A stretch of 64,000 nucleotides of DNA from Aurantimonas coralicida DSM 14790 (lineage in GTDB: Bacteria; Pseudomonadota; Alphaproteobacteria; Rhizobiales; Rhizobiaceae), in assembly GCF_000421645.1 (NCBI RefSeq), contig NZ_ATXK01000002.1:248001-312000 (forward strand). Reading direction: 5' to 3'. The number at the start of each line of letters is the position of its first letter. The stretch's first letter is position 1. The notes below the pieces were generated by a model. The model saw only the letters and a program-made list of their open reading frames with translations. It had not been told where the DNA came from and made no database searches. The translations under genes and the position numbers were made by a program. Below, piece by piece: positions 29,438 through 33,479 of the stretch.

Positions 29438-29675
29438 GAAGATGATCCGTTCTGGTGACTCTACGGCGCCCGACGCGCCCGTTTGGGGCCCCCGGCGCAT
29501 TTTCTCGACCCGCGGGGCGTGCCAATTGGCCCCGCCGATGCTATATACGCCCCACTGAAGGACCCGCATCGTGGGTGATCGTTGATCGGTTCCGCCGTTC
29601 GTTCGAGGAACCCGATCCGACGCCGCGTGTTGTCCCAGAGCCGTCTTGCGTCGTCAACAACAGGAGTCAACGACC

Positions 29676-30215
29676 ATTCGCAGACCATTCCGTGCACCAC
29701 CGACCCAGAACACGGGACCGCGTTCCAACAAGGATATTCGCGTTCCTCAGGTCCAGTTGATCGACGCCGACGGTGAAAACCGCGGCCCGACCGCGACCTC
29801 TGAAGCGCTTGCCATGGCTGAGGAAGCCGGCCTCGATCTCGTCGAGATCGTGCCGACGGCCAACCCGCCTGTCTGCAAGATTCTCGACCTGGGCAAGCTG
29901 AAATACGAGACCCAGAAGAAGTCGGCCGAGGCGCGCAGGCGCCAGAAGACCATCGAGGTCAAAGAGATCAAGATGCGGCCGAACATCGACGAGCACGATT
30001 ACGAGACCAAGATGAAGTCGGTCCGCCGCTTCTTCGACGAGGGCGACAAGGTGAAGGTCACCCTGCGCTTCCGGGGTCGCGAAATGGCGCACCAGGAACT
30101 GGGCATGCGTCTGCTCAACCGGGTTCGCGAAGAGACCGGCGAGATCGCCAAGGTCGAGGCCGAGCCCAAGCTCGAAGGCCGGCAGATGATGATGGTTCTC
30201 GCCCCGCGCGGCTGA
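29676..30215 (+). CDS. infC: Translation initiation factor IF-3, ATT start
   Basis: A 179-residue IF-3 that keeps 30S and 50S subunits apart and proofreads initiation. The start is placed at ATT 29676: CAGGAG precedes it, and translation from there gives RRPFRAPP, the usual alphaproteobacterial IF-3 N-terminus. The rare start codon is the classic IF-3 autocontrol device, since IF-3 itself discriminates against it. Conserved blocks are [29 protein letters not shown], and the C-terminal [11 protein letters not shown]...RGREMAH. A clear terminator follows. Confidence 0.95.
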
Positions 30216-30243
30216 GATCGATCGTCGATCGGTAGACATGCAG

Positions 30244-30280
30244 AAAGCCGGCATCCCTCGGGGGAGCCGGCTTTTTCTTT
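30244..30280 (+). terminator. Rho-independent terminator of infC
   Basis: AAAGCCGGC (30244-30252) pairs with GCCGGCTTT (30266-30274), and the right arm runs into TTTCTTT. This is a textbook intrinsic terminator ending the infC transcript. Confidence 0.85.
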
Positions 30281-30328
30281 GCGCCGTCAGGAATCCGGCC
30301 CGTATGTCGTCGACGCGTGCCGTGCGCC

Positions 30329-31231
30329 TCAGCCGCCACAGCAGCCGGCGCTCAGATCGTGCTGGCTCTTGCCGATGACGGCGATCAGCCGGTCGAGACG
30401 GCTTGGCGGCGGTGCCCCGCACGGTTCGAGCCCGTTGCCGTGGCCGCAGGGCAGAAGCGTAATCGGCAATGGCGCGCCGTGGCGCAGGCCGTGAAGGCCG
30501 AGGGCCTCGCTGTCGCTGTCGCCGCCGACGACGCGTTCGACCGCGCGGTAGAGCTGGCGTCGATCCCGCATTGTCGCGGGGCGCAGGGTATCGGTGTCAC
30601 CGGGCGGCACGAAGAAGCGGCGCGTCGAGATCATGTCCTCCGCGGCCGTGTTGGCGGCAAGGATGGTGCGGCGGTCGGACAGGAGCGCGATCCCGAAGGG
30701 CAGCGGGTCCCAGCTTGCCTCGATCGTCTCCCGGTCCGGCTCGTCCGGGGTGCCGAGGCAGTGGGACACCAGGAAGGTGCGCCGCAGATCGTCGGCATTG
30801 CGGCGCAGCAGCGTGTGGATGGCCGTCGCATTGCGTTCTGTCGGGGTGTCGGGGCTTTCGACGAGGAGGAGCCAGGTCCATGGCGCGCCGTGGTGGAGGA
30901 CCAGTCCGGTCGCCCATGGGACCTGTGATCGGGGCATTCCGAAAGGTTCGATCTGGCGGCTGTCGAACACCGCGCCCGCAATGAGTTTCGGCGTGCCGGG
31001 AGGCGGGCCGGTTTCACCAAAGCGGAAGACGGCCTGTTGCCCGCCGAACGGCAGGGCGAGTTCGAGGCGCTCGGTGCATTGGGTCGCCACCCGAAGGAGC
31101 GTCGTCCGCGCGCCGGCGAACATCGCGTCGATGGCCTGTGTGACCCCGGCCCAGTTTTCCCGGCTGAAAGCGGCACATGGGAGTTGTTTGCGCAGCGTGT
31201 CGATACCGTGCGGAAACCGTATGAGGGTCAT
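30329..31231 (-). CDS. PAS-like regulatory protein without a DNA-binding domain
   Basis: A 300-residue soluble protein. The C-terminal half contains DPLPFGIALLSDRRTILAAN with AAEDM, then LRPATMRDRRQLYRAVERV and a PLPITLLPCG block. This is the PAS-like arrangement of LuxR-type regulators common in Rhizobiales, but those end with an HTH and this one stops at SAGCCGG with none. ATG 31231 was chosen over a longer TTG start at 31315. Codon third positions look less GC-rich than in neighbours. It lies on the opposite strand within the otherwise co-directional infC-rpmI-rplT cluster. It may be a stand-alone sensor or a truncated regulator. Confidence 0.6.
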   Translation of the reverse strand: MTLIRFPHGIDTLRKQLPCAAFSRENWAGVTQAIDAMFAGARTTLLRVATQCTERLELALPFGGQQAVFRFGETGPPPGTPKLIAGAVFDSRQIEPFGMPRSQVPWATGLVLHHGAPWTWLLLVESPDTPTERNATAIHTLLRRNADDLRRTFLVSHCLGTPDEPDRETIEASWDPLPFGIALLSDRRTILAANTAAEDMISTRRFFVPPGDTDTLRPATMRDRRQLYRAVERVVGGDSDSEALGLHGLRHGAPLPITLLPCGHGNGLEPCGAPPPSRLDRLIAVIGKSQHDLSAGCCGG

Positions 31232-31407
31232 TGCCGTCCATTTCCATGCCCACCGGATGATTCCATCGTGTCCGGGATCTGGCAAGTAACTCAGTGAGGA
31301 AATAGCCGGAGTCAAGAATATTCCGTAGGGAGAGGCGGGCGGCCCGCCGGCTGTCCCGGTCGGTTGCGGGGCGGATCCGGGGCTGTGGGGAACCCCGTTG
31401 CGGCGTC

Positions 31408-31436
31408 TTGCGCGGCGACGTGGATTTGCCTATAAG
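31408..31436 (+). promoter_or_regulatory. Promoter of rpmI-rplT
   Basis: TTGCGC and TATAAG are separated by exactly 17 bases. This would give the operon its own start, with a leader of about 135 bases before rpmI. It fits a transcript unlinked from infC, which has its own terminator. Confidence 0.6.
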
Positions 31437-31519
31437 CGCGACGTTCAGATGCGAACCGGCCGGCAGGGCATGCCGTGGCGGTTCTCAATGCTGTCGCGAC
31501 ATCGTCACAGAGGCGACCC

Positions 31520-31542
31520 GGCAATCGGGAGTTCCGATTGCC
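31520..31542 (+). promoter_or_regulatory. Hairpin in the rpmI leader
   Basis: GGCAATCGG and CCGATTGCC form a perfect 9-bp stem with a 5-base loop, about 35 bases before the rpmI start and inside the predicted leader. Ribosomal protein L20 represses its own operon through leader RNA in other bacteria; this stem is a candidate for such control, not a proven site. Confidence 0.45.
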
Positions 31543-31577
31543 CGCGGATTGTCGCGATCCTCACCAAGGAGAGCAAA

Positions 31578-31778
31578 ATGCCCAAGATGAAGACCAAGGC
31601 CAGCGCCAAGAAGCGCTTCCGGATGACGGCCAATGGCCGCGTCAAGGCAGGCGCCGCCGGCAAGCGCCACGGCATGATCAAACGCTCCAACGACTTCCTG
31701 CGCGATGCGCGCGGCACGATGATCCTGTCCAAGCCCGACGAGCGGATCGTCAAGATCTACATGCCCTACAACCGCTAA
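31578..31778 (+). CDS. rpmI: 50S ribosomal protein L35
   Basis: A 66-residue basic large-subunit protein. The sequence [20 protein letters not shown] and the end YMPYNR are typical of L35. It has a good ribosome binding site, AAGGAGA. rplT follows 38 bases later. Confidence 0.98.
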
Positions 31779-31816
31779 GCGGCCCGGGCTTTTTAGAGAA
31801 TTCAGGAGTTTAGATC

Positions 31817-32236
31817 ATGGCACGAGTGAAACGGGGCGTTACGTCCCACGCCAAGCACAAGAAGATTCTGAAGCAGGCCGCCGGTTTCTACGGTCGCCGC
31901 AAGAACACTATCCGCGCCGCCAAGGCCGCCGTCGACCGGTCGAAGCAGTATGCGACCCGCGATCGCCGGGTGAAGAAGCGGAATTTCCGCGCCTTGTGGA
32001 TCCAGCGCATCAACGCCGCCGTCCGCGAGCATGGCATGACCTATGGCCGCTTCATCGACGGCCTGAACAAGGCCGGCATCGAGGTCGACCGCAAGGTCCT
32101 GTCCGACATCGCCATCCACGAGCCCGAGGCATTCGGTGCGCTGTGCGAGCAGGCCAAGTCGGCGCTTGCCTATCTCAAGGAAAGCGAATTTGACGGTGCC
32201 TACGAGCGCGCCGTTGGCGAGACGCGCGCGGCCTGA
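31817..32236 (+). CDS. rplT: 50S ribosomal protein L20
   Basis: A 139-residue large-subunit protein that helps assemble 23S rRNA and in other bacteria represses its own operon. [45 protein letters not shown] and the C-terminal [12 protein letters not shown] blocks are characteristic. It is about 20 residues longer at the C-terminus than the E. coli protein, as is usual in alphaproteobacteria. Confidence 0.98.
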
Positions 32237-32262
32237 GGCCAGCGCAACTCTTGACGCTTACG

Positions 32263-32293
32263 GGCCCGCGCCGCACTGCCGCGCGGGCCTTTT
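32263..32293 (+). terminator. Intrinsic terminator or attenuator between rplT and pheS
   Basis: GGCCCGCGC (32263-32271) pairs with GCGCGGGCC (32281-32289) and is followed by TTTT. It would end the rpmI-rplT transcript, or attenuate reading into pheS about 100 bases downstream. No short phenylalanine-rich leader peptide was found. Confidence 0.7.
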
Positions 32294-32393
32294 CATGTCG
32301 GCGGGTCCGATCGGGCCGCGGTCCGGGCGCGTGTCGCGCGGGGACCTTCGGCGCACGGTCGTCCGGCTTTCGCAAGCAGTATGGGAGCAACGG

Positions 32394-33479
32394 ATGAGCG
32401 ATCTTCAGGCACTGGAAGCCCATCTCTCCGAACAGGTCGCGGCCGCCGCCGACGAGGCGCAGCTCGAGGCGATCCGCGTCGCCGAGCTCGGCAAGAAGGG
32501 CCGCATCTCCGAGCTCCTGAAGGGTCTCGGCAAGATGAGCCCCGACGAGCGCCGCGTCGAAGGCCCGAAGCTGAACGGCCTGCGCGATCGCGCCCAGGCG
32601 CTGATCAACGCCCGCCGCGAGGAACTCGCCGACGCCGCGATCGCCGTGCGCCTCGCCGCCGAGCGGGTCGACGTGACCCTGCCGGTGCGCCCCAGCCCCG
32701 CCGCCCGCGGCCGCATTCACCCGATCAGCCAGGTCATCGACGAGATCACCGCGATCTTCGCCGATATGGGCTTTGCCATCGCCGAAGGGCCGGACATCGA
32801 GACCGACCACTACAATTTTACGGCGCTGAACTTTCCCGAGGGCCATCCGGCCCGCGAGATGCACGACACCTTCTTCCTGAAGCCGGACGCCGCTGGCGAG
32901 CGCAAGGTGCTGCGCACCCACACCTCGCCGGTGCAGATCCGCACCATGGAAACGACGAAGCCGCCGCTGCGCATCGTCATTCCCGGCCGCACCTACCGGC
33001 AGGATTCCGACGCGACCCATTCGCCGATGTTCCACCAGGTCGAGGGTCTCGTCATCGACAAGACCGCCAATGTGGCGAACATGAAATGGGTGCTGGAGGA
33101 GTTCTGCAAGGCGTTCTTCGAGGTGCCGTCGCTGAACATGCGGTTCCGGCCGTCCTACTTCCCCTTCACCGAGCCGAGCCTCGAGGTCGACATCCAGTGC
33201 GACCGGTCGAACCCGGGCGAGGTGCGCTTCGGCGAGGGCTCGGACTGGATGGAGATCCTGGGCTGCGGCATGGTGCATCCGAACGTGCTGCGCCATGGCG
33301 GGCTCGACCCGGACGAGTATCAGGGCTTTGCCTGGGGCATGGGTATCGACCGCATCGCCATGCTGAAATACGGCATGCCGGATCTGCGCGCCTTCTTCGA
33401 TTCCGACGTGCGCTGGCTGGAGCATTACGGCTTCCGCCCGCTCGACATGCCGACCCTGTTCGGCGGCCTATCGACGTGA
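32394..33479 (+). CDS. pheS: Phenylalanyl-tRNA synthetase, alpha subunit
   Basis: A 361-residue catalytic subunit of the class II phenylalanyl-tRNA synthetase. An N-terminal coiled coil (about 1-90) that grips tRNA precedes the catalytic core with motif 2 [19 protein letters not shown] and motif 3 [21 protein letters not shown] 32394 was chosen; the long upstream open frame is not family-like. Confidence 0.97.

Follow-up and report, generated by a model that had tools for sequence, protein, structure and literature searches.

In the Hyphomicrobiales, LuxR-type PAS/GAF-HTH regulators are built of an N-terminal domain, a linking helix and a PAS domain, in that order, and carry a GerE-type helix-turn-helix (HTH). 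Sensor halves of the LuxR type that dispense with the HTH have been described in two alphaproteobacterial hosts, as CerN in Cereibacter sphaeroides and TrlR in Agrobacterium. CerN carries an autoinducer-binding domain, lacks an HTH and, together with AHL, releases CerM (the product of the next locus tag) from its sites; TrlR and its target TraR share 88% identity (both according to excerpts of PMC11655674).

The window analysed here, a stretch of 64,000 nucleotides from Aurantimonas coralicida DSM 14790, contains a gene (here called X; Table 1) whose product falls among the alphaproteobacterial LuxR-type GAF/PAS-HTH regulators, minus their C-terminal HTH. Its N-terminal domain, linking helix and PAS domain follow the same order as in the Hyphomicrobiales regulators, whereas the GerE-type HTH is missing, pairwise identity to them is at noise level and X forms a separate branch. 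With CerN and TrlR it has in common a LuxR-type sensor half without HTH in an alphaproteobacterial host; its sensor, however, is of the GAF-PAS type, without an autoinducer-domain match, and no partner lies nearby. The frame opens with ATG, and the protein ends in DLSAGCCGG. By comparison with relatives, this ATG at 31231 is a better start than the upstream TTG at 31315, because most relatives have an M-x-[LI]-x-FP-like start and because a stop lies at most two codons ahead of it in G001, G003 and G004. Relatives with as little as 21% identity keep the frame, so the ORF is far from a chance one. A sub-threshold Rfam match to ctRNA_p42d (30242-30282, E 3.2, from a search of 29500-32500) falls on the same site as the hairpin behind infC and was rejected.

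Table 1. Gene X, its predicted domains, its surroundings in the window and the HTH-bearing paralogues elsewhere in the genome
Feature	Coordinates	Strand	Basis or remark
X, HTH-free protein (predicted GAF-PAS), CDS, 300 aa	30329..31231	-	ORF reading; orthologues; dN/dS
Putative GAF-like N-terminal domain of X, residues 10-158, ending in the LLRRxAxDLRRxF helix	30758..31204	-	AlphaFold2 secondary structure
Predicted PAS domain of X, residues 165-289	30365..30739	-	AlphaFold2 and fold search
infC (IF3)	29646..30215	+	convergent neighbour of X
GC-rich hairpin then T-run, between the convergent infC and X stops	30244..30277	.	read directly in the sequence
Hairpin in the rpmI leader	31453-31484	+	93-125 nt upstream of rpmI, just past a TATAAG box
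rpmI (L35)	31578..31778	+	divergent neighbour of X
rplT	31817-32236		after rpmI
HTH-bearing paralogue in the same genome	L077:7723-8838	-	
HTH-bearing paralogue in the same genome	L077:17268-18455	+	
HTH-bearing paralogue in the same genome	L080:11671-12807	-	

An earlier note on this DNA had described X as the PAS-like half of a LuxR-type regulator that stops at SAGCCGG without an HTH and leaves no HTH remnant before infC, and each part of that description held. The stop is confirmed in the 300-aa ORF; between it and infC no LuxR-type HTH rose above noise (best score in the gap, -1.4 bits); and the affiliation is borne out by profile comparison, by the reverse search of the genome and by structure, as set out below. 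Across the window, no frame of at least 15 aa gave a LuxR-type HTH above noise (best E 0.2), and, with no match in these frames, the idea of an HTH detached into its own gene close by was dropped. A C-terminal LuxR-type HTH is likewise found in none of the 24 X frames tested, and the 24 proteins, each from a different genome, end near the same domain boundary. X itself ends 11 residues past the PAS domain, about where the HTH of its relatives would begin; in 21 of 22 relatives the HTH starts between residues 290 and 354, the exception (L132) being a shorter protein. A model of a full-length HTH-bearing paralogue, which is poor (pLDDT 58.7, pTM 0.38) and was compared in the order of its elements only, places the HTH right after the PAS strands, at the point where X ends.

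Kinship with the HTH-bearing proteins was read from profiles. Aligned by hhalign with six HTH-bearing relatives, X matches over residues 14-258 (probability 98.3%, E 1.9e-14), a comparison that is not independent, since the six came from a search with the X profile. In the profile alignment a helix motif, LLxRLAxxLRRxF, is common to X and the HTH family. A profile of the HTH family run against the genome itself brings up X (E 9.4e-6) together with three HTH paralogues of full length (Table 1); these are the HTH-bearing paralogues that the earlier note had proposed to look for, and none lies in the window or is close to X in sequence. In the other direction the signal is weaker: at a cut-off of E 0.001 the X profile reaches only one of the three, with 16 bits, and pairwise BLASTP of X against nine HTH relatives, the three from its own genome among them, gives nothing below E 0.05, so that the kinship must be a distant one. 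At the level of sequence profiles, the sensor half of X is homologous to that of the HTH-bearing GerE regulators, weakly so when the search starts from X.

Structure prediction, which had also been suggested for this protein, gave a model of two alpha/beta domains (AlphaFold2 with 24 sequences; pLDDT 82.7, pTM 0.82), a GAF-like one and a PAS one. The second of these aligns with solved PAS domains at VIA-align Z 8.7-10.2, where Z values of 9-10 stand only moderately above the 7-8 reached by models with no clear match, and in the model X has the fold by which PAS-domain proteins are recognized. Among Foldseek matches, multi-domain PAS and PAS-containing sensors rank highest (E 5e-5 to 1e-3); their TM-scores are low, 0.2-0.3 over the whole chain, and for this reason the label GAF-like, given to the N-terminal domain, is our own reading of the predicted fold, the PAS domain alone being well supported by the fold search. 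Asn194 and Phe207 are invariant across the 24 X sequences. RsLOV, one of the short PAS/LOV proteins, is not known to have an output domain, and LOV proteins carry a flavin-cysteine motif. X resembles RsLOV (4hia, 4hnb) in its PAS fold (Z 8.8-9.3), and in fold only, as the LOV flavin-cysteine motif is not seen in X when the alignment is inspected by eye. Sequence families add little: no Pfam or NCBIfam family matches X up to E 10, PAS_4 is weakly matched by 4 of the 24 family members (best E 0.0009), weak matches to PAS_4, PAS_8 or PAS profiles occur in some of the 24 and not in X itself, and a sequence search of solved structures brought up one protein, a sensor histidine kinase, as a marginal match (E 0.05). 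In L048, L050 and L051 (genomes G030, G407 and G109), which occupy the infC-rpmI site, the gene has kept its PAS domain but has an N-terminal domain that is reduced in length or missing; hence not every member can work through its N-terminal domain.

X has been kept within one bacterial family. Searched with the protein alone, 12 of 60 genomes proved to have a relative, among them all eight genomes of the genus searched (its own counted), and besides these eight X occurs in 17 other genomes of the family. Profile searching gave matches in 31 of 394 family genomes, and with the final X profile the HTH-free frame, at 110 bits or more, is present in 24 genomes of seven genera; all other matched frames score at most 51 bits. 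Of seven weaker family matches, the six fetched (all but G138) are LuxR-type HTH proteins. Of 397 genomes sampled from the order, 43 have a match, and X itself occurs in two (its own genome and G027), both of the window's family; 28 of the 45 rows that matched and were not X were fetched, and 24 of them have an HTH, the other four being frames of 518-874 aa without one, with no row above 51 bits. Orthologues within the genus share about 30-45% identity, save one pair at 92%, and G006 carries an orthologue of 93% identity to X. A contig scan with the single protein found A. manganoxydans as the only true relative; two Bifidobacterium matches in that scan, of 19-21 residues, were judged to be chance. 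Literature searches on HTH-less LuxR proteins, rpmI leaders and the Aurantimonas gene, in a corpus that leaves most subscription journals outside its coverage, showed no description of X in the titles and abstract openings of the matches listed.

These proteins form one branch in each of three trees. After removal of the HTH from all relatives, all 24 rows group together at 99/99, in an alignment of the 24 X rows and 22 HTH relatives that has several long branches and a bootstrap not fully settled. Two further trees, whose alignments still contained some 23-26 HTH residues, unite 24 of 24 rows at 100/99 and, with G007 and G030 left out, 22 of 22 at 98/98. The 24-row alignment is without L041 (G394), and in it L006 (G007) is partial, at a contig end. 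The trees give no direction of gain or loss; since HTH-bearing forms occur in many families of the order and X in one, the likely direction is loss, the clade's ancestor having given up the HTH.

This distribution bears directly on whether X could be a truncated import, as the earlier note had offered, or more generally a truncated, recently imported or decaying gene. The note had also remarked on third-codon base use less GC-rich than that of the neighbours. Within the window that difference stands, GC3 being lower than that of X in just 5 of the 41 coding-like ORFs and the codon score in just 4. It shrinks to a minor one against 133 coding-like ORFs drawn from the window and eight 20-kb genome stretches (some of them atypical): X has a GC3 of 0.827 against 0.850 (s.d. 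0.069), at the 25th percentile, and a codon score at the 22nd, so that its codon usage is slightly low in GC3 and not alien to the genome. As a separate observation, two of the HTH paralogues, the plus-strand one on L077 and that on L080, have very atypical codons (GC3 0.62 and 0.67) and look more foreign than X. X is under purifying selection, with dN/dS values of 0.34, 0.20, 0.37, 0.33, 0.42 and 0.09 in six pairs; the constraint is loose, because these values exceed those of eight neighbours (0 to 0.09, window against G006) and because the orthologues diverge fast. The raised dN/dS is, with the window's codon figures, what favours import or decay, but an open HTH-free frame in 24 genomes of seven genera with a shared end, a fixed locus whose position is kept across the genus, purifying selection and a codon usage at the 22nd to 25th percentile make such an origin hardly credible. 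The stand-alone sensor that the note had put forward instead fares better, in that the family is real, conserved and HTH-free, and we consider it fairly probable that X, passed down vertically, is a stand-alone GAF-PAS sensor working through a protein partner.

CerN and TrlR are the models for a rival reading, which the earlier note had also raised. X could be an antagonist of a full-length LuxR-type regulator, either trapping it in inactive heterodimers as TrlR does TraR or releasing it from DNA as CerN does CerM. X has kept the sensor half and the helix without the HTH, three HTH-bearing relatives are encoded in its own genome, and the alphaproteobacterial precedent of CerN and CerM works at only 31% identity (excerpts of PMC11655674); against this, the BLASTP comparison with nine relatives reveals no close HTH-bearing paralogue, no HTH match lies within the window, and X is not an autoinducer-binding-domain protein. 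The domain concerned, PF03472, is absent from X in Pfam up to E 10 and is not among the six families matched by the 24 members, and the one PF03472 match in the genome sits on a different contig from X. Taken together, we regard antagonism as possible and rather unlikely.

A stand-alone sensor of this kind is ordinary; its fixed place is what makes the X family unusual. Outside genus g21, infC adjoins X in 18 of 18 genomes and rpmI lies directly on its other side in 13. In G007 rpmI lies apart, on another contig with a weak match to X at its end (L088), and in four of the 18 rpmI is not beside X: panC is there in G222 (by Pfam) and G154 (by eye) and an EamA gene in G034, and in G029 no rpmI lies within 12 kb around X. 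An in-frame query for rpmI matched 43 of 47 loci, the exceptions being L020, L021, L022 and L027. In six of the seven g21 genomes (L021, L115-L119) X stands divergent to rimP-nusA; in the remaining one, G394, a contig end cuts the locus short. The identities of rimP, nusA and ylxR at L021, and of nusA at L116, were confirmed by Pfam, and the neighbours at the other g21 loci were read from near-identical N-termini. Separation of infC from rplT, on different contigs or by 229 kb (G221), was seen in 9 of 9 genomes (seven of g21, G034 and G222).

Such company invites the idea that X regulates the adjacent translation genes (infC, rpmI-rplT or, in g21, rimP-nusA), linking a signal to the supply of ribosomes and initiation factors. 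The constant place beside infC, with rpmI on the other side in 13 of the 18 genomes, and the position beside rimP-nusA in g21 would fit it, but most of the instances represent one inherited position, panC or an EamA gene faces X in g23 and g28, and X has no recognizable RNA- or DNA-binding part. A single local rearrangement may account for the g21 position, since three Aurantimonas genomes have nusA at a distance of only some 80 kb from X. We think regulation of these genes improbable, and it is no likelier that X founds an unnamed family of output-less, metabolite-sensing GAF-PAS sensors tied to translation operons, tuning initiation-factor and ribosome supply by protein contact. Some relatives without X have a different gene in the infC-rpmI gap (L099, L101, L102 and, upstream of rpmI, L111), which by eye encodes a small membrane protein resembling an isoprenylcysteine methyltransferase, and the gap seems to be a site of gene swapping.

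The rpmI side of the gap holds an element of its own. In the leader lies a hairpin with a nearly invariant apical part (CGGCA-GGGCA-TGCCG) and a covarying outer stem, whose core motif precedes rpmI in 34 of 36 genomes (41 of 43 regions), with and without X; it was also noticed at loci such as L094, L107 and L108. The alignment, drawn from 43 upstream regions of 36 genomes (seven seen twice), omits the motif-less L110 and L112 and the variant L104, L106, L109, L111 and L114, and comprises 21 of the 23 remaining distinct elements. In these 21, 98.7% of 231 cells are paired and 23 double changes occur against a shuffled mean of 4.5; none of 500 shuffles reached the covariation score, and one of the 500 came up to the observed number of pairs with double changes. 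Rfam 15 gave no match to the hairpin, up to E 5, in the window stretch or at four loci. It is probably a leader controlling L35/L20, independently of X, and is likely to be a ribosomal-protein leader so far unlisted.

If X is, as we prefer, an inherited stand-alone sensor, its PAS pocket would most likely bind a small ligand or cofactor, and X would most likely dimerise with a partner protein through the retained inter-domain helix, LLRRLAxDLRRxF; its state would then most likely be passed on by protein contact, the leading candidate for the partner being an HTH-bearing regulator. The practical weight of X is modest until its partner or its ligand comes to light. X is no recent truncation: a LuxR-like sensor half has persisted through a bacterial lineage with no DNA-binding part, in most genomes at one fixed site next to a core translation gene. 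This makes it a clean case in which to ask how one-component regulators become pure protein-protein signalling modules.
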